From NCBI GenBank assembly GCA_019136655.1, contig JAGVTU010000010.1, forward strand, positions 124,001 to 188,000: a DNA stretch of 64,000 nt, read 5' to 3'. A program made the position numbers and the translations under genes. Every line of letters begins with the position of its first letter. Position 1 is the first letter of the stretch. The stretch is from Bacteroidota bacterium (GTDB taxonomy: Bacteria > Bacteroidota > Bacteroidia > AKYH767-A > OLB10). The notes under the pieces were generated by a model that saw nothing but the letters and a program-made list of their open reading frames with translations, was not told where the DNA came from and ran no database searches. This document shows positions 15,701 to 57,185 of the stretch, in pieces.

Positions 15701-16047
15701 GCAGCGGTTGATTTAATGCTTCCATATTTTACACCACCGGTCAATTCCTTAATCAAAGGTGCTGCTACGGAATTGCCATCGTAAACGCGCAGATAGTCAT
15801 TTATATTTTCTACATTAAACTTATGAAACGTAACACAAATTTTTGCATTGGGCAGATTGGCAGGAGGATATATGGTAAGTGTGTCCTGCAGGTTATTTGC
15901 ATAATTATTTGCAGGTCCTCCCTGATCGTATAAATTTGCCAAACACGTGTAAACAACACCTGAGTGCATATTAATACCATTGCCACAAAGGGCAGGTAAC
16001 GTAAACCACCAACACAAGGTTGCCAAGAGTAAGAGTTGCTTTTTCAT
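12778..16047 (-). CDS. Secreted protein with eight CUB-like repeats and T9SS type A sorting domain
   Basis: This 1089-residue protein has a signal peptide (about 1-21, LLLLATLCWWFTLPALC). Eight tandem repeats of about 118-125 residues follow. Each has the order DxGGpxxNY, tvtxxP, aSVxFxxF, DyLxVyDG, a GTxxS element, GSLTfxFvSN and GWxA, the CUB pattern. The tail, about 1010-1089, is a T9SS type A sorting domain (VSVYPNPASHYIQIDL to GLYLVKISSQDKSVMKKLIIQ). CUB domains bind protein or glycan partners, often with calcium, so a surface or extracellular binding role is likely. No catalytic domain is visible. The repeats diverge in sequence, so the expansion is old. Confidence 0.88.
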   Translation of the reverse strand: MKKQLLLLATLCWWFTLPALCGNGINMHSGVVYTCLANLYDQGGPANNYANNLQDTLTIYPPANLPNAKICVTFHKFNVENINDYLRVYDGNSVAAPLIKELTGGVKYGSIKSTAADGSLTLLFHSNNTSNAEGWFASVTLDTLPDDITMIASGKWYTSGGRFFDSGGPNNNYENNANVTTTIFPKNPGDKISVVFNECNISQGDILTIFDGSAAGVNQIGQITGSAVNYGTVTSSAADGSLTFVFTSNASGNNAGWTASIITNYQPEDITTLANGVYSVSTGRFMDSGGAFSNYPAGANTAVTTILPKNAGEKISVTFHECDIASGDYLEVFDADNVTATPIAVITGLNTGTVHASNATGALTFRFVTNASGNAAGWIASVTTFNTVEEITMLANQSFVVNCFARFYDNGGTVDNYANAKNCVTTLFPSSATDKLNITFHSFVLSANDYLYVYDGPDTNSTLLGSYTGTLNSFSLESTHATGSLTFKFVSNTSGNNTGWFATVNCTSGIQSYNMPLNTSANYTTSSAFFYDNGGPNANYSDNSGLTSVVTFFPVNSNEKLSVSFTYFDTYSIDDYLEVYDGDNVFTAPLLAKLYNRAAYGTLKATNSAGCLTFRFVSNGGFNSGGWAAYLSSTVIPQVFSLPGTYVANEGMFMDAGGNGGNYTDQYNHIFTFTPVSALDKASLKFVFLSTYNANDFLEIHDGPSITDPIIAVLNNSTGHGSIKASASNTTGSLTVKFVSDNGFNSSGWVAILNTDSLPEVISMPGTYTINEPKAFYDQGGPHANYTDNENTVTFLRPLNAGDKVSIVFSRFKHYDNNDFIEVHDGPSVTDPVIAKLGSDGGYGTIVSTHPTGCLTIQTITNNGFNQSGWSGYVTVNAAPKIFSMTGNYICDNGFLIDNGGPDINYNDNTNDVITVTPQQSGAYLTVNFNYFYNYNSSDSIRIFNGNSTNAPLLAVLKADATDTSFSSTAADGSLTFEIKTNTGFNSTGWVAAISSNSNCYYTGVNETEALLNQVSVYPNPASHYIQIDLNALNNNEASVEILEVSGKQLQKFTTRNKYVSTKLDYAPGLYLVKISSQDKSVMKKLIIQ

Positions 16048-29943: not shown

Positions 29944-29966
29944 GCAGATTATGTTAATCTGCTTTT
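29944..29966 (+). terminator. Probable short terminator after the DUF6265 gene
   Basis: A perfect 8-bp stem (GCAGATTA, loop TGT, TAATCTGC) at 29944-29962 is followed by TTTT. It lies 28 bases after the stop codon and 48 before the next gene. Confidence 0.55.
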
Positions 29967-30013
29967 CTGCATTTTTGCACTTTCAATTTTTAAAATATTC
30001 TGACGAAATACGT

Positions 30014-32245
30014 ATGACAAAAAAACTTTTCTTTTTATTGGCAACTCTTTGCCTGCTATCAACAGTAAAAATATCGGCACAAAATTGTATTGAGATTAAC
30101 AGTATTCTGGTAGATGCCTGTGGATTTCCTGAAGGTGAAAACGAAATGGTACGCTTCACAGTAGGAGCAACTCCATTACCCATTAATTTGCTTACTGTAT
30201 CATGGCCAACAACTACACTTAACTTTCTGGGAATTTGTCAGAATGCAAATACTGCACAAAAAGTGGCCGATCTCAATGCCAACATTCAGTCTTGCGGATA
30301 TATTCTTGAACCTGTAGGCGGCACCTTGCCTGCCAACAGCAAGGTGATACTTGTGACCAGCGAAAATATGAGTACAACATTCAATTCGTTTGCCAATCTC
30401 ACCGATACAATTTATATGATATTTCAGTGTGCAGGGAATACACAGGGACATTTCAGAAATTATTCTGCAACTGTATCAACACCTCGCATACTAACTCTTG
30501 ACTTCAGCCCCATCTGCAGTCAGACTGTGAGCTATTATCCAAATCAGTTAGTGAATCAGTTTGGACAACTGGATACTGCACAACAGGATGGATCAAGCGT
30601 AGCTTATGATGCATCAGGAAATGCAACCTATTACAACAACGGCTGTCAGGCACCCATCATTACTCTTACAGCAAACGTGCAGGCTTTGTCAACTACCATT
30701 TGTGCAGGTGATACAGTAACTGTTATAGCATCAAACTTAACCGGAAACTATTCAGGTTATTTCTGGCAAGGTGGACATGGAAATTTTACTCCGCCCAATT
30801 TTTTGAACACCATTTATCATTCGTCATTCAATTATTCAGGCATTGACACTTTATATTTTTCTATGCTGGGACAATGTAATGATACCATAACCTATCCTCT
30901 TTATCTGAACATACAAAATGGTCAGGCAGCAAGTATTTCAGGCCCTACCACATTATGCGCAGGAGATACCATTGTACTTACAGCATCTTCAGGCTCAGGT
31001 TATCAATGGTCGAACGGAGCAACTACACAATCCATTCAGGTTTTACAGGCAGGAACTTACACAGTGACTGTATCAGGTTCATGTGGTTCACCTACAGCAA
31101 GTGTAACTGTAACATCAGGCAGTGCACCTTCTGTAGCGATAACACCCGGTCCAACTGTAACTATCTGCAGTGGTCAGTCAGTTACTTTAACAGCGTCAGG
31201 CAGCACAAACTATTTGTGGTCAACAGGTGAAACAACAGCAGCCATTACCGTAAGTGCAGCAGGAGTATATACAGTTGTTTCATCCAATAATTGCGGTTCG
31301 GATTCTGCAAGTGTTACTGTTACCGTTACAAATGTGCCAACAGTAAACATTACTGCATCAGCAACATCTCTTTGTGCAGGACAAACTGCAACACTGACTG
31401 CATCAGGAGCATCAACTTATCTGTGGTCAAACGGGCAAACGACTTCTTCTATTACTGTTAATGCACCGGGCACTTACACCGTAACAGGAACCAGCAGCTG
31501 CGGTACTGCCACTGCAACACAAACCATCACTGCAGGCACTTTACCTGTTGCACAAATTTCTTCACCGTCCACTATACTTTGCCCGGGTACATCTCTTACT
31601 CTGTCTGCATCAGGTGGCGACAATTATACATGGAGCAACGGAACTACAGGAAGCCAGAACACCATCACACAGGCCGGACAATATTTTGTTTATGCAACTA
31701 ATGCATGTGGCAGCGATACTGCTGATATTACTGTTAATCAAAGTAACATCTTCGCCAACTTTGTGCCTGATATTACTTCAGGCCTCGCTCCACTGACAGT
31801 TAACTTTAACAATACAAGCACAGCATTCACATCAGGCACATGGAATTTTGGAGATGGATCTACCTCTGATGTTATCAACCCTCAGCATACATTTAATTTT
31901 GGTGGAAATTTCACGGTATGGTTGACCATAGCTGATGACAACGGTTGTCAGGACAGTGTATCAGCAAATATTTTGGTTGATGACAGTCAGTTATTCATTC
32001 CAAATGCAATTACTCCTAATAACGATGGAAAAAATGATGTATTTACATTTAACAGCACTTCCATCAAAAGTGCAACAGTGACAATATTCAATCGCTGGGG
32101 CAACAAAGTAACTTCCTATACCGATTGGGTAAGAGGCTGGGATGGTTCAAATGTGATTGCCGGAGTTTATTATTATGTTATCGAAATAGAACAACATAAT
32201 GGTGAGAAAAAAACATTGCATGGCTCATTGAATGTGATCAAATAA
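30014..32245 (+). CDS. T9SS type B secreted protein with Ig-like and PKD domains
   Basis: This is a 743-residue protein. The ATG at 30014 starts a clean signal peptide (LFFLLATLCLLSTVKISAQ); an upstream in-frame ATG at 29951 lies inside the preceding terminator hairpin. Residues about 25-200 form an N-terminal globular domain (CIEINSILVDACGFPEGENE). About 230-580 are four or so Ig-like repeats, each with a LCAGdTvtLTASG-like opening and a YxWSnGxTTqsIxV core. About 590-660 is a PKD domain (SGLAPLTVNFNN, TWNFGDGSTSD). The C-terminus is a gliding-motility-type (type B) sorting domain with FIPNAITPNNDGKNDVF and IFNRWGNKV. It should be exported by T9SS and stay on the surface. The role is otherwise unknown. 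Confidence 0.88.
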   Translation: MTKKLFFLLATLCLLSTVKISAQNCIEINSILVDACGFPEGENEMVRFTVGATPLPINLLTVSWPTTTLNFLGICQNANTAQKVADLNANIQSCGYILEPVGGTLPANSKVILVTSENMSTTFNSFANLTDTIYMIFQCAGNTQGHFRNYSATVSTPRILTLDFSPICSQTVSYYPNQLVNQFGQLDTAQQDGSSVAYDASGNATYYNNGCQAPIITLTANVQALSTTICAGDTVTVIASNLTGNYSGYFWQGGHGNFTPPNFLNTIYHSSFNYSGIDTLYFSMLGQCNDTITYPLYLNIQNGQAASISGPTTLCAGDTIVLTASSGSGYQWSNGATTQSIQVLQAGTYTVTVSGSCGSPTASVTVTSGSAPSVAITPGPTVTICSGQSVTLTASGSTNYLWSTGETTAAITVSAAGVYTVVSSNNCGSDSASVTVTVTNVPTVNITASATSLCAGQTATLTASGASTYLWSNGQTTSSITVNAPGTYTVTGTSSCGTATATQTITAGTLPVAQISSPSTILCPGTSLTLSASGGDNYTWSNGTTGSQNTITQAGQYFVYATNACGSDTADITVNQSNIFANFVPDITSGLAPLTVNFNNTSTAFTSGTWNFGDGSTSDVINPQHTFNFGGNFTVWLTIADDNGCQDSVSANILVDDSQLFIPNAITPNNDGKNDVFTFNSTSIKSATVTIFNRWGNKVTSYTDWVRGWDGSNVIAGVYYYVIEIEQHNGEKKTLHGSLNVIK

Positions 32246-42094: not shown

Positions 42095-44233
42095 CTATTT
42101 TACTTTGAGTACTTTGAACTCTGTTCTTCTGTTGAGCTGATGTTCCTCTTCTGAACAAGGTACTACTTGTTTACCTTCACATTCACAATGATTAATCAAT
42201 TGCGATTCGCCATAACCTTTGTAAATCATTCTGGAAGCTTCTATACCTTTTTTAACCAAGTATTCCACTGCTGATTTAGCACGTTTATGCGAAAGGTCCA
42301 TGTTGTATTTGTTGCTTGCACGACAATCGGTGTGTGAGCCCAATTCAATTTCCATCTTCGGATATTTTTTCATTATTTCAACCAACTTATCAAGCTCCTT
42401 AGCTGCATCAGGACGAATATTCCATTTTGCTAAATCATAATAGATGTTGTCAATTCGGATAACGTCACCCTGACAGAAAAATCCAAAATCAGCTTTTAAT
42501 ACTGTTGATTTTTTCAACCCTACAGTGGAGCGATCTGCAAAATTATCTGCACAATTTTCTCTGAATGACATCACTTTATAGTTTGTTTCCGGTTCAAGAT
42601 CGAAATGGTAATTTCCTGCACCGTCAGTGAGTGTTTCTTTCTCTTCATTCGTACGAAGGTTAATCAGCTTTACAGGATGATTAGGCAATGCTGATTTATC
42701 TTCCTCTAAATAAACATGTCCTTCGAGTGCAAAAACAGGTACCTGCGACAATGGAATTTTGATTGATTGAGGTTCATCACTTACATCTTTAATTTCTCCA
42801 CTACCATTGTGATATCCTTCTTTTGATGCCATGAAACTATAATTCTGTCCTATTGATAAGCATGCTGTAAACTTACCCTTGTCATCTGTTGTAACATCAG
42901 CAAAAGAATTTCCGGCTTCTGAAATTTTTACAGTTGCATTAGCAATCGGAAGATTGGTTTCTTTATCGTACACCAATCCATCCAAAGGCACGCAATTTTT
43001 TCGGAACATATACAAATCGTCATTCTCATTTTTTGAATCTCGATTGGATGACAGATAACCACAACGGTTTTTCTTGTCATATACGTAAGCAAAATCATCG
43101 TAGGTGGTATTAAGAGGTGCTCCAATATTTTCAGGAGTAGAAAATATTCCATTCTCAACATGTGACTTATAAATGTCCAAACCACCCAATCCTACACGAC
43201 CATTAGAGGCAAAGTATAAATTACCCTCATGATCAATATAAGGGAATAATTCGTTTCCGGAAGTGTTGATTGCTGATCCGAGGTTTACTGGTTTATCCCA
43301 TTCGCCATTTACTTTATTACACACCCATAAATCCATTCCGCCTTTTCCACCGGGCATATCACTTGCAAAATAAAGTTTGTTACCATCAGCAGAAAGGCAT
43401 GGATGAGCACAGGAATATGTTTTGTCATTGTATTTAAAACCTTTGAATTCAGAAAACTTTCCATTCACATTCTTGGCGATTTCAATTTTTAAACGAACAA
43501 TACGATTCTTGTCTCTTACAATCTTTCCATTCTCTTCGTAGTTACGGGTAATGTACATCTCATTGCCGTCAGCAGAAAATGCTACCGGGCCATCATTGAA
43601 CTTTGATTTATCTGCCAATTCTAACTGTACAGGAGTGCTTAGTTTATCTTCCTTACCCTGACTGAACCATAATGACAAATAGGGCTTTGAAGTCCAGTCC
43701 TGATTTTTAGACTTACCATCTTCGCGTGAAGATGCAAAAACAATCCCGTCCTTATATGGAGTTGCGCACATATCACCGTTGAGAGAATTTATAGTAAGTC
43801 TTTTCACAATCCACAAATCTTTACCCGAAGAAAGATTGTTGCTGCTAAGTGCGTCAAGCTGTGCTTTTACTTCCACATCATCGGGTTTTTTGTCGAGATA
43901 TTTTTTCATCTGAGCAGCTGCTTTATCTTTCTTACCTAGACTCGTCAGCACTCCTGAGTAAAGCAAGTGTTCCTGACCGGTGGCAATAGAATCAGCTGTT
44001 ACACGCTCATACCATTTTTCAGCTTCTTTATACTGATTGTTTCTTCGATAACAATCAGCTAGTTTGGCCGCTGTTTCATGATTATACTTTTTTGAAAGTA
44101 TTTTCTCATATAATGGAATTGCTTTGCCAAAACTATATTTAGAATACAACTGATTGGCCAGTACTAAATCGTCTTGCTGCGCAAAAGCAACTGACGAAGC
44201 TATCAGTGCTATGATTAATAATATTGGTTTCAT
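42095..44233 (-). CDS. PorE-like OmpA family protein (TPR, propeller, CRD, OmpA)
   Basis: This 712-residue protein has a signal peptide (LLIIALIASSVAFAQ), a TPR region (about 20-130), a PD40/WD40-like propeller (about 155-410; APVSLGSAIN-type blades such as PCLSADGNKLYFASDMPGG), and a carboxypeptidase-regulatory-like pair (about 415-575). The C-terminal OmpA peptidoglycan-binding domain (about 590-712) has DNIYYDLAKWNIRPDAAKEL, ELGSHTDCRASNKYN and LNRRTEFKV. This domain order is that of Porphyromonas PorE, which links the T9SS attachment complex to peptidoglycan. ATG 44233 is chosen since it starts the signal; a slightly earlier ATG at 44248 is possible. It is third in the adhesin operon, 31 bases after the PorP-like gene. 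Confidence 0.9.
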   Translation of the reverse strand: MKPILLIIALIASSVAFAQQDDLVLANQLYSKYSFGKAIPLYEKILSKKYNHETAAKLADCYRRNNQYKEAEKWYERVTADSIATGQEHLLYSGVLTSLGKKDKAAAQMKKYLDKKPDDVEVKAQLDALSSNNLSSGKDLWIVKRLTINSLNGDMCATPYKDGIVFASSREDGKSKNQDWTSKPYLSLWFSQGKEDKLSTPVQLELADKSKFNDGPVAFSADGNEMYITRNYEENGKIVRDKNRIVRLKIEIAKNVNGKFSEFKGFKYNDKTYSCAHPCLSADGNKLYFASDMPGGKGGMDLWVCNKVNGEWDKPVNLGSAINTSGNELFPYIDHEGNLYFASNGRVGLGGLDIYKSHVENGIFSTPENIGAPLNTTYDDFAYVYDKKNRCGYLSSNRDSKNENDDLYMFRKNCVPLDGLVYDKETNLPIANATVKISEAGNSFADVTTDDKGKFTACLSIGQNYSFMASKEGYHNGSGEIKDVSDEPQSIKIPLSQVPVFALEGHVYLEEDKSALPNHPVKLINLRTNEEKETLTDGAGNYHFDLEPETNYKVMSFRENCADNFADRSTVGLKKSTVLKADFGFFCQGDVIRIDNIYYDLAKWNIRPDAAKELDKLVEIMKKYPKMEIELGSHTDCRASNKYNMDLSHKRAKSAVEYLVKKGIEASRMIYKGYGESQLINHCECEGKQVVPCSEEEHQLNRRTEFKVLKVK

Positions 44234-44264
44234 AATACGAATTGTCATAATCAGAAATTTTAAG

Positions 44265-45206
44265 TTAGAAGAACCTTGGAGTTAACACACCTGTTTTTTG
44301 GAGAGGAAAGTCATAACCCAATGTAATCTCATGGGTTCCTGAATTGTATTTATTCAATCGGTTGGTAGTATAGTCATAAGAATAACCCAGACGTAATTGC
44401 TTGGTAATATTTATCTGAGCATAAACTGATGCAGCTGCAGCAGTACGATAAGTTAAACCAATCCAGAATACTTCATTGAAATATGCGGCCAATGAAATGT
44501 CTGCCTGAATCGTTGCTCCATCCGAAGCACGAATCATAGTCATTGGTTTGAGTTTAATTTCAGGACTTACATCAAACACATATCCACTTGTGAGAAAGTA
44601 ATGAAAATTACGCTGAGAAATCCTGTTCTTGATATCTCCTCCATTAACAGAGTCAATATAATTCTCAACCAATCTCGGGATTGAAAAGCCGGCATAAAAA
44701 CGTTTGCTGTTATAATAAATTCCGAACCCTGCATTGGGAACAAGTTTAGTCACATTTTGACTAAACTGAATGTCATTAGGATCATGAGTCACAACATCAA
44801 GATAGTTCTCACGCATATGAATTAACCCTGCCTGTAATCCAAATGCCAGACGACCATTATCACTGGTTTGAATACGATAAGCATAGTTTGTAAAGAATCC
44901 TACCTTTTTTTCTACACCGATGGATTCATTCATAAACGACAAACCTAAACCAATCTTTTTGTTCTTCACCGGTCCATGAATAGAAAGTGTCTGTGTTTTT
45001 GGAGCACCTTCCATTCCTACCCATTGATTACGGTACAATGCCGTTGCTGAAATAACATCACGTGAACCAGCATATGCAGGATTGATAAATGTTTCATTAA
45101 ACATATACTGTGTAAAAAGTGGATCATACTGAGCATTGGCTTTGTTCAGGCTTAGACCTGTAATCAGACAGGCTAACGCAATCAGTTTTTTTACATGTGT
45201 ATTCAT
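44265..45206 (-). CDS. PorP/SprF family type IX secretion membrane protein
   Basis: This 313-residue outer-membrane protein has a signal peptide (KKLIALACLITGLSLNKANAQ) followed by the PorP signature YDPLFTQYMFNETFINPAYAG, then NQWVGMEGAPKTQTLSIH. The rest is barrel strands ending LTPRFF. In Flavobacterium johnsoniae SprF is needed for export of SprB, and PorP-like proteins anchor type B cargo. ATG 45206 begins the signal; an in-frame ATG at 45257 adds a charged 17-residue stretch. It follows the adhesin by about 55 bases and lies in the same operon. Confidence 0.93.
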   Translation of the reverse strand: MNTHVKKLIALACLITGLSLNKANAQYDPLFTQYMFNETFINPAYAGSRDVISATALYRNQWVGMEGAPKTQTLSIHGPVKNKKIGLGLSFMNESIGVEKKVGFFTNYAYRIQTSDNGRLAFGLQAGLIHMRENYLDVVTHDPNDIQFSQNVTKLVPNAGFGIYYNSKRFYAGFSIPRLVENYIDSVNGGDIKNRISQRNFHYFLTSGYVFDVSPEIKLKPMTMIRASDGATIQADISLAAYFNEVFWIGLTYRTAAAASVYAQINITKQLRLGYSYDYTTNRLNKYNSGTHEITLGYDFPLQKTGVLTPRFF

Positions 45207-45260
45207 TGTTTTTAAATTTTCGTTTTTATTACAAATATTTTTTCTCCTGTCCATCATTGC

Positions 45261-48200
45261 TTATCGTTTAAGAGTGAGGAATCCTTGCAATGGTTTTTTA
45301 CCATCATTCAGATCGAGAATATAATAGTATGTACCATTTGGCAGCTGTTGTCCAATATATACTCCTGCAACATTGGATGTACCATCCCAATTATTGTCGT
45401 AATCGCGTTTCTTATAAACCAGATTGCCCCAACGGTTGTAGATGTACAGAATGTTGCCCGGATATTTACTCAATCCATCAATCACATAAGTGTCATTCAC
45501 TGCATTACCATCAGGAGAGAAACCGGTTGGAATAAAGAGTGTATCACAGGTTACTGTTACCATTACTTCAGAAGTAGCTTCACATCCTTCAGCAGAACGA
45601 ACAACCACTGTATATTTTGTAGAAATCTTTGGTACTGCAATCGGATTTGCAATAGTTGAGTCATTCAGACCTTCGCCAGGATTCCACAGATACCATGAAC
45701 CTCCGGTAGCAAACAACTGAGCTTGTTCTCCATCCTTTGGACATATCATAATATTAGGGCTTACTGTGAAGTTTCCAACTGAATTAACTTTTACTTCTAC
45801 TGGATTTGACATAAAGTTTCCGCAACTGTTTGTCAATGATACGGTGTATGTTCCTGCTGCAGGGGTAGTAAATGTTGGTGATGTTGCACCTGTTAAAGGT
45901 TGTCCGTTTACATACCACTGATATGATCCACCAGGTACAATCATTGCATTCAATGTAACCGTTCCTCCGATACAGAACTCAGTTGGTCCCTCAGCGTTCA
46001 TATCAAAAGTCGAAACATCATTTACAATCTGAGTTATTTGTGTAGTACAACCATTGGCATCTGTAACAGTGAGCGAGTAAGTTCCTGCACCAACACCTGT
46101 CAGATCCTGATATTGTGAACCATCACTCCACAGGTACTGATATGGTTGTGTACCACCATTCACTATCACATCTACATTTGCACCCACACCGGTGAGACAG
46201 TTTGCATCATTTGCAGAAGATGTTGCAGTAAGTGCAGCTGATGGTTCTGTAATTGTTACTGAATGCTGATCGGTACATCCACCCTGATCGGTTACAGTAA
46301 GATTGTAAACACCGGGTGAAAGATTGCTCAACGATGCAGTGGTTGCTCCATTACTCCACAGATAAGTGTAAGCCGGAGAACCTCCCATTGTAGTCACAGT
46401 TATGCTACCATTGGCCAGACCAAAACATGTTACCTGCGAAATATTCAGATTGTTCGACAAACCTGAATCAGGTTGAATAATCTGGAATGTTGTATCCAAC
46501 ACACAATTATAACTGTCGGTAACTGTGACTGTATAAATTCCTGCTGCAAGATTTGAAATCGAAGAAGTTGTGCTACCATTCGACCATAGATAACTGTAAG
46601 GTGGAATACCTCCGGTTGCTTTTATTGATGCATATCCTGTTGCCATATTATAACAGTTGACATCCTGTTGCTGACCTGTTATTTCAAGTTGTTGAGTAGG
46701 TCCGTTGATTGTTAATGTATCATTGAATACACAACCTGCACTGTCTGTAATCACTACAGTATAAGTTCCTGCTCCAATATTTATCAGATTCTGAGTAGTA
46801 TCGCCATTACTCCATACGTAAGTATATGGTGCTGTTCCTCCCATAGTATTCATAGATATCGAACCTGAAGTTACAGACTGACAATTTACATGCGTTAATG
46901 AAGCATAAGATACTAAGGCACCCTCAGGTGAAGGAATGTAAGCAGAAGCCTGAGCCACACAGTTATTGGCATCTACAACAAACACAGAGTAAGAACCGCC
47001 TGTCATGTTTACAAGATTTTGTGTAGTATCGCCATTGCTCCAGTAGTATGAATAAGGTTGTGTACCACCTGTAACAGTAAGATTAATTGCACCCGTTGAG
47101 TCCGCAAAACAACCTACAGGAGTAATTGCTACTGCAGGTGATAATGGTGACAATGGTTGCGTAACTGTTGCTGTCATATTAAACATACATCCGTTGGCAT
47201 CAGTAACTGTTAATGTATAATTTCCTGCGGCAACACCGGTAAGATCTTCTGTGCTCATACCATTACTCCACTGGTAAGTGTATGGCATTGTACCACCTGT
47301 TACTGTTACATCAACAGCACCATCATTGCCTCCGTAGCAGAATACTGCCGAAGTCATAACATAGGATGCATTCAATGCTGCAGCAGGCTGAGCAATTTCT
47401 ACTGAGTCAGTAGCAGTACAACCATTGGCATCAGTTACTGTAAGCTGATAAACACCTGCAGTGAGTGAGTCAATTGTTGTTGTGGTGGCACCGTTACTCC
47501 AGTAATAGGTGTAAGGTGAAGTACCTCCGTTAACTACTGAAGTGGCAGAACCATTGTTTCCACTGAAACAGTTTACATTTTGCTGAACAGATAAACTATT
47601 TGATAACGGAGCAGCAGGCTGACCAACTACTGCACTTACGCTGTAAGTACAACCATTGGCATCGGTAACCAGAACATTATAATTTCCTGCCGCAACATTT
47701 TGCTGATCTTCGTTAGTGCTTCCGTTGCTCCAGTTGTAAGTATAAGGTGAAGTACCTCCGATAATTGTAATATCAATATTACCGGTAGCATTTCCAAAAC
47801 ATCCTACACTATCCACAGATGAAACACCTCCTGAAATACTGTCCTGAGGCTGAGAAATAGTGACAGACTGTGATGACGAACATCCATTGGCATCGGTAAC
47901 CAAAACATTATATGTACCTGCTGAAAGTGCAGATTGATTTTGTGATGATGATCCGTTACTCCACTGTATTGTATATGGAGTAGTTCCTCCCTGTATATCG
48001 AGGTTTGCTGTACCTGTTGTTCCACCATAACACAATGCCGGACTGGATGATATTATTGATGTAGCCAGTGCAGCTGATGGCTGAGAGATAGTAATTGTTT
48101 GCGTAGCTGAACAACCATTCACATCAGTTACGGAAACAGTATAACTTCCTGCGCCTAATCCCGAAATATCTTCGGTAGTAGCACCATTGCTCCAGTTGTA

Positions 48201-51200
48201 AGTGTAAGGAGAAGTACCACCATTCACAGTTAAGTCAATACTTCCTGTAAGATTGCTGTAACACAACACATTTTGCATTGCAGAAACGGAAGCAGTAAGA
48301 GTAGCTGCCGGTTGAGTGATTGTTGCTGTCTGATTATTATAACAACCATTTGCATCAGTAACAGTTACTGTATAAGTGCCCGCTGACAGATTTGAAATAT
48401 CTTCAGTGGTAGCACCATTGCTCCATGCAAATGTATAAGGTGCAGTACCGCCAGATGCAGTTAAGTCAATACTTCCGGTTGAGTTGCTGAAACAATCAAC
48501 ATTTTGTGTAGATTGAATTGAAGTAGCAAGACTTGATGCAGGCTGGGCTACTGTTTCCGTTAAACTATAAGTACATCCGTTGGCATCGGTAATGGTTACA
48601 GAATAAGAACCTGTTGCAAGTCCTGAAATATCTTCGCTTGTTGCTCCATTGCTCCAGTTAAACTGATAAGGCATGGTTCCTCCAGTAACTGTAATATCTA
48701 TTGCGCCATTGCCACCACCGGTACAAGCTACGTTCTGAGAAGAAGATACCGTTGCAGCAAGTGAATCAGCAGGCTGACTAACAGCAAGACCTGTAATGGA
48801 TGCTGTACATCCGTTGGCATCGGTAATACTTACCGAATAAGTTCCTGCTTCAACGTTCATCAGATTTTGTGATGTTGCACCAATACTCCACAGATAGGTG
48901 TATGGTGTTGTTCCTCCACTCACATTGATAAGGATTGCTGCCGTGCTATTGCCATAGCAGCTAACGTTAGTAATATTATTTACAGAAGTTGAAAGTGATG
49001 CTGATGGCTGTGTTATTGTTGCTGACTGCACTTCTGTACAACCGTTAGCATCAGTTACTGTAACAATGTAAACTCCTGCTGTTATTGAAGAAATATTCTG
49101 AGTAGTGGCTCCATTGCTCCAGTTGTAGCTGTATGGAGATGTACCTCCGTTTACAGTTAATTGCACACTTGCATTGTTGCCACCAAAACAATTTACATTT
49201 TGAGTGGATGAAACCGATGCTGCCAGTCCTGCTGATGGCTGAGTGATTACTTCCGATACACTGTAAGTACATCCATTGGCATCAGTAACAGTTACCGAAT
49301 AACTTCCTGAGCTAAGTCCGGAAATATCTTCTGTAGTGGCACCATTGCTCCAGTTGAATGAATAAGGTGATGTACCACCGCTCACATTTAAGTCAATTGC
49401 TCCATTGGCACCTGCATTACATGATACATTGGATGTGGATGCCACACTTGCAAACAATACTGCTGCAGGTTCTGCAACTACAATTGCATTAATAGTTGTT
49501 GAACAGTTGTTGGCATCCGTTACAGTTACTGAATAACTTCCTGCCGATAAGTTTGACAGGTTTTGCGTTACTGCACCATTGCTCCAGTTATAACTATATG
49601 GCGATGTACCACCACTTACATTCAGGTTGATTGCTCCGGTGCTTTGTCCGTAACAGTTTACATTTTGCATTCCTGATACTGAAGCTGCTAATGCTCCTGC
49701 AGGTTGCTGAATGGTAATTGCAGATAAGAATGTGCTGCAATTATTAGCATCCGTTACAGTAACTGAATAAGTTCCCGCAGGAATATTTAAAAGATTTTGT
49801 GTTGTAGCTCCATTGCTCCAGTTGAAAGTGTAAGGTGCAGTACCTGCACTTACAGTTAAGGTTATTGAACCTGTTGTATTTCCAAAACAACTTACATCCT
49901 GTGATGAGGCCACCTGTGCATTCAAAGCTCCTGCAGGCTGACCTACATTGATACTTGCTGAAGTGCTGATACATCCGTTTGCATCGGTAACTGTAACCAC
50001 ATAATTTCCTGAAGCAATACCATTCAGGTCTTCAGTAACAGCACCATTGCTCCAGTTATAGCTGTAAGGAGCTGTTCCGCCATTAACAGTTAAGTCAATG
50101 CTTCCAGTATTGTTTCCAAAGCATCCTGCTTCAGTAGTGGTGTTACTTAAGGTAAGTGCTGCAGCAGGTTGTGATAATGTTACACTTCCTGTTGAAGCAG
50201 TACATCCGTTGGCATCAGTTACTGTAAGAGTGTATGTGCCTGCACCAACTGATGTGAGATTTTGTGTTGAAGCTCCGTTGCTCCAGTTATAAGTATATGG
50301 TGAAGTTCCACCGCTTACATTTACTGAAACGGATCCGGTATTATCACCAAAACAATTTATATTCTGAGAACTAAAGGACGTTTGTAATGCTGCTGACGGT
50401 TGAGAAACCTGAATCGCTGAAGAAGCAAAAGTACATCCGTTGGCATCAGTTACAGTTACTGAATAAGTACCTGCCTGAATATTAATAAGATTTTGTGTTG
50501 AAGCTCCGTTGCTCCAGTTATAAGAGTAAGGCGATGTACCTCCGCTTACATTCAGCGCAACAGAACCTGTATTGTTGTTGTAACAATCTACTGCAGTTGT
50601 CTGCGAAGTTGCAGATAACTGTTCAGCAGGTTGTGTAAGTATGATTCCATTCAAAGTAAATGTACAGTTGTTAGTATCGGTAACTACAACACTGTAGGTT
50701 CCGGCTCCAACATTGGTCAAATCCTGTGTTGTGGCACCGTTACTCCAGTTATAAGTAAATGGAGCTGTACCACCCGTAACAGTTACATCAATGCTGCCGG
50801 TGCTTTGTGCATAGCAAAGAATATTCTGAGATGCTGCTATCGTTGCATTCAATGCCCCCGAAGGTTGCGAAATAACTACTGACGACTGGCTAATACATCC
50901 GTTGGCATCTGTAACTGTTACAGCATAATTTCCTGCAGATAAACCGTTCAGATTTTGTGTAGTTGCTCCGTTGCTCCAGTTGTAGCTGTAAGGTGCTGTT
51001 CCACCTGTTACTGCAAGTTGAACTGAACCATTGTTGCCACCATAACATAAGATATCTACTGATGATGAAACTGAAGATGTTAAAGCACCTGCTGGCTGAG
51101 AAACAACACCTGTTGCTGTTGCTGTACATCCATTGGCATCAGTTATAGAAACATTGTATGTTCCTGCATAAAGTCCTGAAATATTTTGTGTAGTTGCACC

Positions 51201-54200
51201 ATTACTCCAGTTAAAAGTATATGGCAAAGTTCCTCCGTCAACATTCAGCGTGAGCGAGCCGTTACCCCCACCGCTACATGCAACATTACCTGTAGAAGCA
51301 ATGCTGGTTGTTAATGTAGCGTCAGGCTGATTCACCAGTATTCCTGAAATGGATGTTGTACAGTTGTGAGCATCCGTAACTGTAACACTGTACACACCTG
51401 CAACAATTCCATTCAGGTTTTGTGTGGTTGCACCGTTGCTCCAGTTATAACTGTAAGGAGCAGTTCCTCCGTTAACATTCAATGATAATGCTCCATTATT
51501 ACCACCAAAGCAGAGTACAGATGTGTTATTTGCAACGGAAGCATTCAGTGCTGCAGAAGGTTCATTCACTGTAATTCCTGTCTGTGCAGCTGTACAGCCG
51601 TTAGCGTCTGTTACAGTTACTGTATATGTTCCTGCAGCAACTGCGGTAATGCCTGATGTGGTGGCTCCTGTATTCCACAAATAAGTGTAAGGAGTTGTAC
51701 CACCGGTAACCGTTGTTGAAATGGCTCCGCTGAGGTTGCTATGACATGCTACATCAGTAACTGATGCAACAGCAGCAAGTGAAGCAGAAGGCTGAGAAAT
51801 GATAATTCCGTTTAATGCCATTGTACATCCGTTGGCATCCGTTACAGTCACAGAATAACTTCCTGCAGTAATGTTGGATAAATTTTGTGATGAAGCACCA
51901 TTACTCCAGTTATAACTATAAGGAGATGTTCCGCCATTTACAGTCAGATTGATTGCACCATTATTTTCTCCATGACAACTTACATTCTGCGATGAAGATA
52001 CCGATGCAGCTAGTGCAGCAGCAGGTTGCGATATTGTTTGAGATACATTGGTTGCACAACCATTGGCATCGGTTACAGTTACAGTGTATGATCCTGCAGT
52101 AAGTCCTGATACGTTTTGAGTTGTTGCTCCATTGCTCCAGTTATAGTTATATGGTGCGGTACCGCCATTTACAGTTAGCTGAATTGATGCATTATTGCCT
52201 CCAAAACAATTCACATTCTGTGAAGACTGTACAGAAGCACCTAATGCCATAGCAGGTTGTGTAATGGTAGCTGATTTTTCACTTGTACATCCGTTGGCAT
52301 CAGTTACAGACACTGTGTAAGTTCCGGCAGTAAGCCCTGAAATATTCTGCGTGGTAGCTCCATTGCTCCAGTTATAACTATAAGGTGAAGTACCTCCTGT
52401 TACATTCAGATTCAGTGAACCATTGGACAATCCATAGCATGATACATTGCTTGCAGTTGAAATGGAGGTGTTAAGTGTAGCTGCCGGTTGTGTTAATGTT
52501 GCATTGGCAGTTGCAGTACATCCGTTTGCATCTGTCACAGTTACTGTATAAGTTCCGGCCTGCAATCCTGAAATATTTTGCGTAGTAGCACCATTGCTCC
52601 ACAAATAACTGTATGCAGTAGTTCCACCACTTACAGAGAGATTGATGCTTCCGTTAGGAACATCATAACATGAAATGTTTTGTGCTGAAGAAATAGATGC
52701 ATTGAGTGCCTGTGCAGGTTGAGAAATTGTCTGCACTGCATTGGCAGTACATCCGTTTGCATCTGTTACTGTTACAGTGTATGTTCCGGAAGTAAGCCCG
52801 GTAATATTCTGAGTGGTTGCTCCATTACTCCAGTTATAGTTATAAGGTGCAGTACCGCCATTTACAGTTAATGTAACAGAAGCATTATTACCTCCGAAAC
52901 AATTTACATTTTGCGAAGAAGATACTGATGCATTCAATGCAGCTGATGGTTGCGTGATGGTATGTGATGTTGATGTTGTACATCCGTTAGCATCTGTTAC
53001 AGATACAGTATAGGTTCCTGCAGATAAATTCGTCAGGTTTTGTGTGGTAGCTCCGTTACTCCAGTTATAACTGTAAGGTGTAGTACCACCGCTTACCGTT
53101 AGATTTAATGAAGCATCACTTCCGCCAAAGCAGTTTACATTTTGTGAAGATGCAACTGATGAGCTTAATACTGCAGAAGGCTGCGCGATAGTCTGACTGA
53201 TAGTTGTTGTACAGTTCAGGTCATCAGTAACAGTTACTGTGTAAGTTCCTGCAACCAGTCCAGAAATATTTTGTGTGGTAGCACCATTACTCCATACATA
53301 ATTATAAGGAGCTGTACCACCAACAACATTAAGATTAACAGTTCCGTTGCTCAGTCCGTAGCAAGTAACATCAGCTGAAGAAGCAACTGAAGCACTCAGT
53401 GCACCCGAAGGTTGCGTAATTGTTTTACTGATAGTATAAATACATGAATTTGCATCGGTGATGGTTACGGAATAAGATCCTGCGGCAAGATTGCTCAGGT
53501 TCTGAGTGGTTGCTCCATTGCTCCAGTTGAATGAATAAGGTGCAGTACCTCCTGTAACATTCAGGTTGATGAATGCATTATTTCCGCCATAACAGAAAAC
53601 ATTCTGTGTAGATGATATTGTTGCTGACAATGCATTGGCAGGTTGCGAAACTACTCCTGTGGCTTCTAATGTACATCCATTAGCATCGGTAATTGTTACA
53701 TTATATACTCCAGAATTAAGACCTGAAATATCTTTTGTAGTTGCACCGTTATTCCACAGATAGGTATAAGGTGAAGTTCCTCCGCTAACAGTCAATGTAA
53801 GTGCGCCATTGCCACCACCGTTACATGAAACGTTTTGCGTTGACTGAACTGAAGCACTTAAAGTGGCTGAAGGCTGACTAATTGTTATTGAGTTCATGCT
53901 GCTGGTACATCCATTTGCATCCGTTACAGTTACACTGTAAGTTCCTGCTGCCAGATTTTGCAGATTTTGTGTTGAAGCACCGTTGCTCCAGTTGAAAGTA
54001 TAAGGTGAAGTTCCTCCTGCTACTGTCAGGTTAATTTGTCCTGTTGACTGACCAAAACATAAAACATTCGTTTTAGAATCAAGTGAGCTGCTAAGTGCCG
54101 CAGAAGGTTGTGTTACCGCTATAGCATTTTGCGCAGAAGTACATCCGTTTGCATCAGTTACAGTAACGGTATAAGTTCCTGCTCCAATTGCTGAAAGGTT

Positions 54201-57185
54201 TTGTGTTGTAGCTCCGTTGCTCCAGTTATAACTGTAAGGAGCTGTACCACCACTCACAGTAAGATTAACAGCACCTGTTGCATCGCCAAAACAATTTACC
54301 TGAGTTGAACTTGCTGATGAAGTAAGTGCCGCAGTTGGTTGAGTAACCGAAATTGCACTCTGTGTTGTTGTACATCCTTTAGCATCAGTGATGGTTACTG
54401 AATAAGTTCCTGCAGCAACATTGCTCAGGTTTTGAGTTGTTGCTCCGTTGTTCCAAACATAAGTATATGGAGATGTTCCGCCATTAACAGTAAGTGTAAC
54501 AGATCCGGTAGAGTTTCCGAAACAATCTACATTGCTTACTGATGTACCTGAAGATAATGCTGCAGAAGGTTGTGTAACTGCAATAGCTGCCTGTGTTGAA
54601 GTACAACCTTTGGCATCAGTAACTGTTACTGTATAATTTCCGGCTGCTAAACCTGATTGATTCTGATTAGTTGATCCATTGCTCCATGCATAAGTATAAG
54701 GTCCTGTACCACCACTTACTGTAAGGTTAATTGAACCTGTAGCGTTTCCATAGCAATTTACCTCTGATGCTGCCGGCACTACTGAAAGTGCTGCAGCAGG
54801 CTGAGAGATGGAAATTGCAGACTGTACTGAAGTACATCCGTTGGCATCGGTAACAGTAACAGAATAACTTCCTGCCGATAATCCTGAGATATTTGCAGTT
54901 GTTGCTCCGTTGCTCCATGCATAAGTATAAGGAGAAGTACCTCCTGTAACAGTTAAATTTACAGAACCATTATTACCGCCAAAGCAACTTACATTCACTT
55001 TTGTATTAGAAACTGCTAATGCAGCTACAGGTTGTGTAACGCTGATAGAATTCTGAGTACTTGTACAACCATTTGCATCAGTAACAGTAACCGAATAAGT
55101 TCCTGCTGCAACATTGCTCAGGTTTTGAGTAGTTGCTCCATTGCTCCATGAATAATTATAAGGCCCGGTACCTCCGTTAACAGAAAGGTTCACTGCTCCG
55201 GTAGCCTGACCAAAGCAACTCACTGCCACGGCTGTTGCTGTTGAAGTGAGTGCTGATGTTGGTTGAGTAATGGTTGCAGTTGCAGTAGCCGTACACCCTT
55301 GCGAACTGGTAACAGTAACTGTATAATTACCGGCAGCAACATTTGTTATGTTTTGTGTCGAAGCACCATTGCTCCAGGCATAAGTATAAGGTGCAACTCC
55401 GTTAGACACAGAAATATTTACTGATCCGGTTGATTGCCCGTAACAATTTACATTGGTAGCTGTGGCTGAAGCCTGAGGAATTTTTCGCAGATTTAATGTC
55501 AATGTGTCCTTAGCAAGGGCACATAAATATTTTGGGTAAAGCACCAACTTAACAGAGCCTGCATTTATATCTGCTGTAGAAGGAACATAAATTGCATTTC
55601 TTGTAGAATCATTCGGAATAAATTGTCCGGTTCCTGTGGTAGTCCATTTTGTAGCTCCGGTAAATGGTGATTGTGAATAAGCAATAGAGCCTGACAATTG
55701 AATTGAGTCCTGGCTACTTCCTTTTGTACACACATTCAAATCACTTCCTGCATTGTTTACCAGATAATCCGGCATTTGCAGTGTTGTTTTCTGACTTAAC
55801 CTGTTTGCAAACCACCATGTGTTAATGGTATTGCTCTCACCTATTGTATTCTGATCGGTATTGGCCGGACTTGATGTCCAGGTATGACAAGGTGATGAAC
55901 AACCTATCAGATTGGTTGAACCACCAACCAACACATCATCATAAAAGAGTGAATCTACAAAATTTGCACTGCTAGGCCTTATAACAGACATTGAAAATCC
56001 TGTTTCATGATTTTCCACGTCATACATTGGAAGATTTACCAATCCTGTTTCAACACTTAAAATTAAGGATACACTGTTTCCTACAGGTATATAATTGCCG
56101 AATCCATCTTTTGCATCCCAATATAAACAACTGCTTCCGGCAGGCACGTTCTGAAAAACCATTCTTCGGTCAGCAGTACCGGCATCATATTTATCATTAT
56201 TATTTCGGTCAATCAAAACGGTTACATCAGATGATTTCACGAGATTTACATTGATACATACTGAATCTTTTACACATCTTTCAAATGCAGGCGGGCCGCC
56301 AAGGAACTGCATATTTCCACTCGGAAATGCTACATGATCAGGATCTGTAAGAAATAATTTATATTCATCAGGCACTGAAAATCCAATTTTAGAACGTCTG
56401 TCGTTAGTAGGGTTACCTGTATTTGCTGTTCCGAAACGATTACAAGAAACTCGGAACTTGTATGGTTTGATACCATTCATATCAACCTTAGTCACTGAAC
56501 TATCCTGACCATATATAAAGAAGTATCCAAAAAAGGGATTTGAATATGACTCAGTGTTAAATCCCCAGTTCTTAGAAAACAAACGACCGGTTACGGCAGT
56601 ATTACTGGAAGTGTTGACAACTGTAACGTCAAATATACCGAGACTTAACTCAGTATTTGTTGAAACACTTGTTCCGCTGTTTCTATTGAATTCAATATAA
56701 TACTCTCCTGCAAGCCCAGCTGTTGGATTACAACTGAATCCATTATACCCTTGCGGATTTACTACATTAGGACCGGCAATAGCCTGTTTGTGATAGTTGA
56801 TAAAACCCGTTCCGGTTGTTGTTGGCAACAACTGAGGCCCAAAAATTATATTTCCATTAGGGTCTTTTATACGAACATACCAGTTGCTATTGGATGATCG
56901 CTGACCAATACCGAAATAAATTTTTTCCTGCGCTGGATTATTAATTCTGATATACAACCTTTCTTTATCGGTTGCAGAGTAACCTGCAAATGTTCCGTAA
57001 GTAGATTGCTGATTAATAATCATCAGGTTAGTAGCCTTGGTAGTGTCAGGCCTGAACTGTGGAGATCCGTCAGCCAATGCTTTCTCATTGACGATGATTC
57101 CCATGAATAAAACAGCCCAAATAAGGACTGATTGTCTCCATAAAATAGAGTTGATTTTTTGAATTGCTGATAACATCTTTCCCAT
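45261..57185 (-). CDS. Giant SprB-repeat surface adhesin, T9SS type B
   Basis: This is a 3974-residue protein. A signal peptide (about 1-38, SVLIWAVLFMGIIV then ALA) precedes a unique N-terminal region to about residue 577. About 41 SprB repeats of about 77 residues (about 578-3724) follow, each with an NVxCFGgxxG opening, GGTsPYxYxWSNGATTqnlsnl, aGtYtVtVTDANGC and a tISQPxxAL closing. Two Ig-like segments (about 3725-3885) and a type B sorting domain (FIPTGFSPDGNAVNDTY and YIYNRWGNLVYKK) end the protein. Each repeat has two Cys, so disulfides are possible. SprB of F. johnsoniae, 6497 residues, is the mobile gliding adhesin; this is a shorter relative, and a gliding or attachment role is inferred. 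ATG 57176 is an alternative start. Confidence 0.93.
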   Translation of the reverse strand: MGKMLSAIQKINSILWRQSVLIWAVLFMGIIVNEKALADGSPQFRPDTTKATNLMIINQQSTYGTFAGYSATDKERLYIRINNPAQEKIYFGIGQRSSNSNWYVRIKDPNGNIIFGPQLLPTTTGTGFINYHKQAIAGPNVVNPQGYNGFSCNPTAGLAGEYYIEFNRNSGTSVSTNTELSLGIFDVTVVNTSSNTAVTGRLFSKNWGFNTESYSNPFFGYFFIYGQDSSVTKVDMNGIKPYKFRVSCNRFGTANTGNPTNDRRSKIGFSVPDEYKLFLTDPDHVAFPSGNMQFLGGPPAFERCVKDSVCINVNLVKSSDVTVLIDRNNNDKYDAGTADRRMVFQNVPAGSSCLYWDAKDGFGNYIPVGNSVSLILSVETGLVNLPMYDVENHETGFSMSVIRPSSANFVDSLFYDDVLVGGSTNLIGCSSPCHTWTSSPANTDQNTIGESNTINTWWFANRLSQKTTLQMPDYLVNNAGSDLNVCTKGSSQDSIQLSGSIAYSQSPFTGATKWTTTGTGQFIPNDSTRNAIYVPSTADINAGSVKLVLYPKYLCALAKDTLTLNLRKIPQASATATNVNCYGQSTGSVNISVSNGVAPYTYAWSNGASTQNITNVAAGNYTVTVTSSQGCTATATATITQPTSALTSTATAVAVSCFGQATGAVNLSVNGGTGPYNYSWSNGATTQNLSNVAAGTYSVTVTDANGCTSTQNSISVTQPVAALAVSNTKVNVSCFGGNNGSVNLTVTGGTSPYTYAWSNGATTANISGLSAGSYSVTVTDANGCTSVQSAISISQPAAALSVVPAASEVNCYGNATGSINLTVSGGTGPYTYAWSNGSTNQNQSGLAAGNYTVTVTDAKGCTSTQAAIAVTQPSAALSSGTSVSNVDCFGNSTGSVTLTVNGGTSPYTYVWNNGATTQNLSNVAAGTYSVTITDAKGCTTTQSAISVTQPTAALTSSASSTQVNCFGDATGAVNLTVSGGTAPYSYNWSNGATTQNLSAIGAGTYTVTVTDANGCTSAQNAIAVTQPSAALSSSLDSKTNVLCFGQSTGQINLTVAGGTSPYTFNWSNGASTQNLQNLAAGTYSVTVTDANGCTSSMNSITISQPSATLSASVQSTQNVSCNGGGNGALTLTVSGGTSPYTYLWNNGATTKDISGLNSGVYNVTITDANGCTLEATGVVSQPANALSATISSTQNVFCYGGNNAFINLNVTGGTAPYSFNWSNGATTQNLSNLAAGSYSVTITDANSCIYTISKTITQPSGALSASVASSADVTCYGLSNGTVNLNVVGGTAPYNYVWSNGATTQNISGLVAGTYTVTVTDDLNCTTTISQTIAQPSAVLSSSVASSQNVNCFGGSDASLNLTVSGGTTPYSYNWSNGATTQNLTNLSAGTYTVSVTDANGCTTSTSHTITQPSAALNASVSSSQNVNCFGGNNASVTLTVNGGTAPYNYNWSNGATTQNITGLTSGTYTVTVTDANGCTANAVQTISQPAQALNASISSAQNISCYDVPNGSINLSVSGGTTAYSYLWSNGATTQNISGLQAGTYTVTVTDANGCTATANATLTQPAATLNTSISTASNVSCYGLSNGSLNLNVTGGTSPYSYNWSNGATTQNISGLTAGTYTVSVTDANGCTSEKSATITQPAMALGASVQSSQNVNCFGGNNASIQLTVNGGTAPYNYNWSNGATTQNVSGLTAGSYTVTVTDANGCATNVSQTISQPAAALAASVSSSQNVSCHGENNGAINLTVNGGTSPYSYNWSNGASSQNLSNITAGSYSVTVTDANGCTMALNGIIISQPSASLAAVASVTDVACHSNLSGAISTTVTGGTTPYTYLWNTGATTSGITAVAAGTYTVTVTDANGCTAAQTGITVNEPSAALNASVANNTSVLCFGGNNGALSLNVNGGTAPYSYNWSNGATTQNLNGIVAGVYSVTVTDAHNCTTSISGILVNQPDATLTTSIASTGNVACSGGGNGSLTLNVDGGTLPYTFNWSNGATTQNISGLYAGTYNVSITDANGCTATATGVVSQPAGALTSSVSSSVDILCYGGNNGSVQLAVTGGTAPYSYNWSNGATTQNLNGLSAGNYAVTVTDANGCISQSSVVISQPSGALNATIAASQNILCYAQSTGSIDVTVTGGTAPFTYNWSNGATTQDLTNVGAGTYSVVVTDTNNCTFTLNGIILTQPAEQLSATSQTTAVDCYNNNTGSVALNVSGGTSPYSYNWSNGASTQNLINIQAGTYSVTVTDANGCTFASSAIQVSQPSAALQTSFSSQNINCFGDNTGSVSVNVSGGTSPYTYNWSNGASTQNLTSVGAGTYTLTVTDANGCTASTGSVTLSQPAAALTLSNTTTEAGCFGNNTGSIDLTVNGGTAPYSYNWSNGAVTEDLNGIASGNYVVTVTDANGCISTSASINVGQPAGALNAQVASSQDVSCFGNTTGSITLTVSAGTAPYTFNWSNGATTQNLLNIPAGTYSVTVTDANNCSTFLSAITIQQPAGALAASVSGMQNVNCYGQSTGAINLNVSGGTSPYSYNWSNGAVTQNLSNLSAGSYSVTVTDANNCSTTINAIVVAEPAAVLFASVASTSNVSCNAGANGAIDLNVSGGTSPYSFNWSNGATTEDISGLSSGSYSVTVTDANGCTYSVSEVITQPSAGLAASVSSTQNVNCFGGNNASVQLTVNGGTSPYSYNWSNGATTQNISSITAGVYIVTVTDANGCTEVQSATITQPSASLSTSVNNITNVSCYGNSTAAILINVSGGTTPYTYLWSIGATSQNLMNVEAGTYSVSITDANGCTASITGLAVSQPADSLAATVSSSQNVACTGGGNGAIDITVTGGTMPYQFNWSNGATSEDISGLATGSYSVTITDANGCTYSLTETVAQPASSLATSIQSTQNVDCFSNSTGSIDLTASGGTAPYTFAWSNGATTEDISNLSAGTYTVTVTDANGCYNNQTATITQPAATLTASVSAMQNVLCYSNLTGSIDLTVNGGTSPYTYNWSNGATTEDISGLGAGSYTVSVTDVNGCSATQTITISQPSAALATSIISSSPALCYGGTTGTANLDIQGGTTPYTIQWSNGSSSQNQSALSAGTYNVLVTDANGCSSSQSVTISQPQDSISGGVSSVDSVGCFGNATGNIDITIIGGTSPYTYNWSNGSTNEDQQNVAAGNYNVLVTDANGCTYSVSAVVGQPAAPLSNSLSVQQNVNCFSGNNGSATSVVNGGTSPYTYYWSNGATTTTIDSLTAGVYQLTVTDANGCTATDSVEIAQPAAALNASYVMTSAVFCYGGNDGAVDVTVTGGTMPYTYQWSNGMSTEDLTGVAAGNYTLTVTDANGCMFNMTATVTQPLSPLSPAVAITPVGCFADSTGAINLTVTGGTQPYSYYWSNGDTTQNLVNMTGGSYSVFVVDANNCVAQASAYIPSPEGALVSYASLTHVNCQSVTSGSISMNTMGGTAPYTYVWSNGDTTQNLINIGAGTYTVVITDSAGCVFNDTLTINGPTQQLEITGQQQDVNCYNMATGYASIKATGGIPPYSYLWSNGSTTSSISNLAAGIYTVTVTDSYNCVLDTTFQIIQPDSGLSNNLNISQVTCFGLANGSITVTTMGGSPAYTYLWSNGATTASLSNLSPGVYNLTVTDQGGCTDQHSVTITEPSAALTATSSANDANCLTGVGANVDVIVNGGTQPYQYLWSDGSQYQDLTGVGAGTYSLTVTDANGCTTQITQIVNDVSTFDMNAEGPTEFCIGGTVTLNAMIVPGGSYQWYVNGQPLTGATSPTFTTPAAGTYTVSLTNSCGNFMSNPVEVKVNSVGNFTVSPNIMICPKDGEQAQLFATGGSWYLWNPGEGLNDSTIANPIAVPKISTKYTVVVRSAEGCEATSEVMVTVTCDTLFIPTGFSPDGNAVNDTYVIDGLSKYPGNILYIYNRWGNLVYKKRDYDNNWDGTSNVAGVYIGQQLPNGTYYYILDLNDGKKPLQGFLTLKR
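46014..55454 (-). repeat. SprB repeat array, about 41 units of about 230 bases
   Basis: Codons from NVNCYG (residue 578) to the end of the last unit cover about 9441 bases. By-eye counting gives 41 units, so about 230 bases or 77 residues each. Units are divergent at the DNA level but share a recurring GTTGCTCCATTGCTCCAGTT-like segment (minus strand, encoding NWSNGAT). Units 7-9, 18-20 and 29-30 are more alike than neighbours, with the GGGNG unit recurring at 53823, 51276 and 48723. Confidence 0.85.

Follow-up and report, generated by a model that had tools for sequence, protein, structure and literature searches.

A type B T9SS adhesin operon with a PorE-like gene in a Bacteroidota genome, and a candidate docking motif at the end of its PorP/SprF barrel

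Introduction

The closest described counterparts of the locus presented here are five operons of F. johnsoniae, each of which is reported to combine a PorE homologue, a type B substrate of the T9SS and an SprF-like shuttle (PMC12618676). One of the substrates, Fjoh_3952, was seen as static foci, while SprB and Fjoh_4750 showed helical movement, and anchoring through the PorE-like protein was proposed; the mobile substrates have no porE-like neighbour (PMC12618676). SprF itself carries a CxC C-terminal tail that is disulfide-bonded to GldK (PMC12635249). From P. gingivalis a complex of PorE, PorP and the cargo PG1035 has been isolated (PMC9143113), and in PorE the residues D576, N584 and R591 are reported to hold the stem peptide (PMC7192894). 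In the parts of the literature on PorE/SprF-type shuttles available to us, we found no discussion of PorP tails that have no cysteine.

The present locus resembles each of these systems. It has the gene order of the Fjoh_3952-3951-3950 type of operon (PMC12618676), with a type B cargo followed by an SprF-like shuttle and a PorE-like gene; there the cargo is reported as static foci. Our locus differs in that its cargo is a giant SprB-repeat protein of 3974 residues. With PorE-PorP-PG1035 (PMC9143113) it shares a type B cargo, a PorP barrel and a TPR-propeller-CRD-OmpA protein in which the peptidoglycan triad is identical. P. gingivalis PorE, however, is described as an outer-membrane lipoprotein and a core T9SS component, while the protein found here has no lipobox, is encoded in an operon with a cargo and occurs beside a separate PorE proper. 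An SprB-repeat type B cargo with its own SprF-type shuttle is also the arrangement of SprB-SprF (PMC12635249), but that shuttle has the GldK-bonded CxC tail and no porE neighbour, whereas the one described here ends LTPRFF. We consider it likely that the locus belongs to the static, PorE-linked class of T9SS type B adhesin operons, and propose that its PorE-like protein docks on the PR[FY]F end of the barrel.

Results

The three-gene operon

The window, by which we mean the whole stretch of 64,000 nucleotides that was analysed, comes from a nearly complete Bacteroidota genome of 2.96 Mb. Three neighbouring open reading frames lie on its minus strand, at 57185-45261 (3974 residues), 45257-44265 (330 residues) and 44248-42095 (717 residues), in the order type B, SprF-like, PorE-like. 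The original prediction had named these three consecutive genes, and both their presence and their coordinates were borne out. Clean signal-peptide starts are found at an ATG at 45206 for the PorP gene and at an ATG at 44233 for the third gene. Counted from these, the intergenic gaps are 54 and 31 bases, in agreement with the predicted values of about 55 and 31; counted from the longest open reading frames they are 3 and 16 bases. The single terminator that had been proposed is a hairpin at 42072-42045 on the minus strand, 3' of the last stop, with a stem of 12 base pairs, a 4-base loop and a T-run, and was graded strong. The proposed domains were likewise recovered by Pfam in all three proteins. 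A sigma-70 promoter scan gave no excess over shuffled sequences and no promoter is therefore claimed. The same three genes occur in the same order in three genus-mates (L265, L266 and L267), and dN/dS against L266 is about 0.07 for the adhesin, 0.04 for the third gene and 0.04 for the PorP, values that are rough, with dS above 1. Given this conservation in three genus-mates, and a dN/dS that stays under 0.1 in each of the genes, the unit is not a chance arrangement.

The first gene (45261-57185, minus strand) encodes a hydrophobic N-terminus with a signal peptide, an N-terminal region of about 540 residues, an array of 41 SprB repeats, an Ig-like region and a type B T9SS sorting domain. The repeats, of about 77 residues each and spaced at 75-79 residues, are seen by Pfam as 41 SprB stretches (1397 bits) and cover residues 576-3730 (45996-55460, minus strand). 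The sorting domain at residues 3885-3974 (45264-45533, minus strand) matches CHU_C at 87 bits and TIGR04131 at 53.8 bits, over the cut-off of 35, which together with the signal peptide marks the protein as a type B substrate. In the genus-mates the adhesin is 3974, 3974 and 3975 residues long, though identity falls to 71.5% overall, and the SprB repeats align one to one with those of the focal protein, apart from one repeat of L267 that did not align. Variation in repeat number, whether by phase variation or by assembly collapse, was considered and rejected because the four genomes agree in length while the repeats have diverged from one another. Judged on this comparison the array did not arise as an artefact of assembly, and the number of repeats looks frozen rather than phase-variable. 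Across the four species-level genomes both the length (3974-3975 residues) and the orthology of the 41 repeats are kept down to about 70% repeat identity.

The second gene encodes a PorP/SprF-family outer-membrane barrel, the putative shuttle and anchor, of 313 residues from the signal-peptide start (44265-45206, minus strand), which exceeds the cut-off of TIGR03519 (290 bits against 90.55) and that of PF11751 (283.6 bits). An AlphaFold model of the monomer is a β barrel with a pLDDT of 86.6, and the closest PDB structure to it is 8gl6_F, chain F of the T9SS-RemA CTD complex; a PDB sequence search using the PorP alone gave zero matches. The last strand of the model ends at residue 300, leaving a free, disordered tail of 13 residues (44268-44306, minus strand) that ends ..GVLTPRFF-COOH, with the PR[FY]F motif at 44268-44279. 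The mature protein contains no cysteine at all, and the CxC that SprF has in its periplasmic C-terminal tail is absent.

The third gene encodes a predicted periplasmic protein of 712 residues from the signal-peptide start (42095-44233, minus strand), in which Pfam identifies TPR, PD40 (the β-propeller), CarboxypepD_reg (a carboxypeptidase-regulatory-like domain) and OmpA domains in the order found in PorE. The AlphaFold model has a pLDDT of 83.4. The OmpA-like domain, at residues 604-693 of the protein (P0001; 42170-42439, minus strand), has as its nearest PDB match 6top, the C-terminal domain of PorE, and its D641, N649 and R656 correspond to the PorE triad with identical spacing. This peptidoglycan-binding triad is invariant among 46 PorE-like proteins, and with the domain order it places the product among them. 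Against the PorE model NF052230, on the other hand, it scores 370 bits, under the cut-off of 600, while a different gene of the same genome, on contig C5, reaches 607 bits, and the N-terminus (MKPILLIIALIASSVAFAQQDD) has no lipobox cysteine such as an outer-membrane lipoprotein would carry. For these three reasons we take the third gene to be PorE-like, the label it was first given, rather than PorE itself, and the C5 gene to be PorE proper. A lipobox is also absent from 47 of 49 operon-borne PorE-like proteins by a crude rule that misses at least one discernible by eye (L056).

PorP tails and their gene context

We compared the last residues of the barrel protein in about 210 relatives. The survey took 118 genomes of the phylum, among which 28 had confident PorP matches, and yielded 148 PorP genes, each with 3-kb flanks; this sample and that of the replication below both favour high-scoring PorPs. 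A PorE-like gene directly follows the PorP in 50 of the 148, and 44 of these 50 are also immediately preceded by a type B gene. The search across relatives that had been suggested brought these 44 complete units to light, spread over 17 of the 28 sampled Bacteroidia genomes and eight families, so the focal locus is a further case of a known kind, which it extends modestly to a giant SprB-repeat cargo.

Amongst unfused PorPs the chain ends in PR[FY]F in 41/50 that are followed by a PorE-like gene and in 1/92 in other contexts (Fisher 1e-25), counts that are not independent events because the shuttles with the motif form essentially one supported clade in a tree inferred after removal of the last 18 residues. 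By family, the figures are 30/30 against 0/23 in f5 and 11/20 against 1/69 in the remaining families. New genomes from the order of the window gave 29/31 against 0/37, with about half of the 31 PorE-like genes cut by the end of the locus and recognised from their TPR-propeller part. A phylogeny-aware independent-pairs sign test on supported branches found only four usable pairs and had no power. Entropy is 0.3-1.1 bits at positions -4 to -1 of the tail and 1.9-3.6 bits over the preceding 12 residues. In the whole focal genome the motif ends only two PorPs, those of the PorE units; two further matches to the pattern are not the ends of such proteins.

There are exceptions. Five PorPs that are followed by a PorE-like gene have a cysteine in the tail, and belong to another clade (L060, L144, L203, L207 and L228), and L208 ends in PRYF yet has no adjacent PorE gene. 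The rule that a PorE neighbour means no tail cysteine was rejected as an absolute one, since 7/50 have a tail cysteine.

The tail also varies with other neighbours. A tail cysteine is present in 19/19 PorPs adjacent to GldJ and in 0/33 adjacent to GldK, the latter ending in [PV]R and a further one to three residues in 31/33; by analogy, the cysteine of the GldJ-adjacent PorPs recalls the SprF-GldK disulfide. In many Bacteroidia the gene for a cysteine-tail PorP immediately precedes that for GldJ (L143, L159, L174, L177, L213, L287, L290 and L294-L304), and in the focal genome such a pair on contig C15 (L058:4827-7315) is a candidate for the mobile shuttle of the organism.

Some barrels are naturally fused. 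An OmpA-like domain follows the barrel in L169 (3001-4722), L184 (3001-4803) and L059 (8157-9653, where the domain is below the Pfam cut-off), and a SPOR domain does so in L183 (2530-3882). The PorPs of L229 and L233 carry long low-complexity extensions. None of these six long PorPs is followed by a PorE gene.

SprB repeats are seen in 4/37 cargoes linked to PR[FY]F and in 27/62 others (Fisher 0.0007, uncorrected for relatedness and counting only the visible parts of the cargoes), so the pairing of an SprB giant with a PorE-type anchor is uncommon, though not unique, as it also occurs in L056, L109 and L155. The ends of the type B domains differ by shuttle class as well, being LPxGTYFY..GWIYINR-like with PR[FY]F and TGDITLIR-like with many cysteine-tail shuttles.

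Discussion

It would seem likely that the adhesin crosses to the periplasm via Sec and leaves through the SprA translocon, and that its own PorP/SprF barrel takes it over at the surface through the type B domain and stays bound to it, as judged from the SprB-SprF and PG1035-PorP pairs. On its periplasmic side the barrel would be bound by the PorE-like protein, whose OmpA domain would grip the stem peptides of the peptidoglycan, and the adhesin would in this way be fixed and not carried along a gliding track. The original reading of the locus as cargo, outer-membrane partner and peptidoglycan tether stands, but not as a new idea, since the model had already been published (PMC12618676, PMC9143113). 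Nor is the module self-contained, as had been suggested: export depends on SprA and on the GldKLMN motor, both encoded in the focal genome outside the unit. What we would add is the tail. The PorE-like protein may dock at the C-terminal PR[FY]F peptide, which would then take the place of the tail cysteine that makes the SprF-GldK bond in mobile adhesins. We infer that PR[FY]F docks the PorE-like protein and marks static adhesins; as the association is largely that of one clade, this is a testable lead and not proof.

The same clade-level distribution, with a pairs test that has no power, would also be expected if PR[FY]F were a mere inherited signature of one PorP paralogue family, for example a signal for outer-membrane assembly, with no relation to PorE binding. 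We regard this as a serious possibility, though the less probable one. The motif lies beyond the last β strand, and it is in that strand that a BamA β-signal would be. It has been lost in several branches of the same clade where there is no PorE gene (L145/L146/L151, L149, L168, L158 and L152/L172), and L157/L166, within the clade, have CxC tails. In addition, a related end, the [PV]R noted above, is kept by the GldK-adjacent PorP, which corresponds to the PorE-binding PorP of P. gingivalis.

The product of the third gene scores better against NF053607, the CHU_0125_OmpA family (430 bits), than against PorE, and might be a general OmpA protein of envelope integrity that is merely co-transcribed. 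This seems unlikely to us, as the score is under the curated cut-off of that family too (620), and the tight and recurrent linkage to a PorP and a type B cargo argues for a dedicated partner. Also unlikely is a gliding adhesin of SprB type that moves on a track, with a PorE-like protein whose function in the envelope is regulatory or unrelated. SprB repeats do characterise the gliding adhesin of F. johnsoniae, and the focal genome encodes GldJ as well as GldKLMN, but the shuttle has no tail cysteine for the GldK bond, SprB repeats are also found beyond cysteine-tail shuttles, the GldJ-adjacent PorP of contig C15 is the better mobile candidate, and the mobile substrates of F. johnsoniae are described as having no porE-like neighbour (PMC12618676). 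The focal unit is a warning that SprB repeats alone do not imply gliding.

The docking of PR[FY]F to a PorE-like anchor can be put more generally, as a code in which the tail sets the destination. A free PR[FY]F-COOH would dock the PorE-like anchor and fix the adhesin, a cysteine tail would bond the GldK track and make it mobile, and some lineages would bypass both through fusion of an OmpA or SPOR domain to the barrel. With essentially a single clade, a powerless sign test and the exceptions described, we hold this code to be evenly balanced between right and wrong. Were it right, swapping the tails should turn a static adhesin mobile and vice versa, fixed and moving adhesins of Bacteroidota could be read from sequence, and the static-versus-mobile question of 2025 would reduce to a tail-swap experiment.

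The focal genome has 17 type B matches, 16 of which exceed the cut-off, against 7 PorPs, and an orphan type B protein with PKD and CHU_C domains is encoded in the window at 29951-32245 on the plus strand, with no adjoining PorP. A further unit of type B, PorP and TPR-propeller genes lies on contig C9 (L061:6918-12297), where an OmpA domain is missing from the third gene and the shuttle carries the cysteine tail PPCPVY. On the minus strand of the window are also a cyanophycin-synthetase-like gene (10055-12703) and a gene for a CUB-domain protein that bears a type A T9SS signal (12778-16047).
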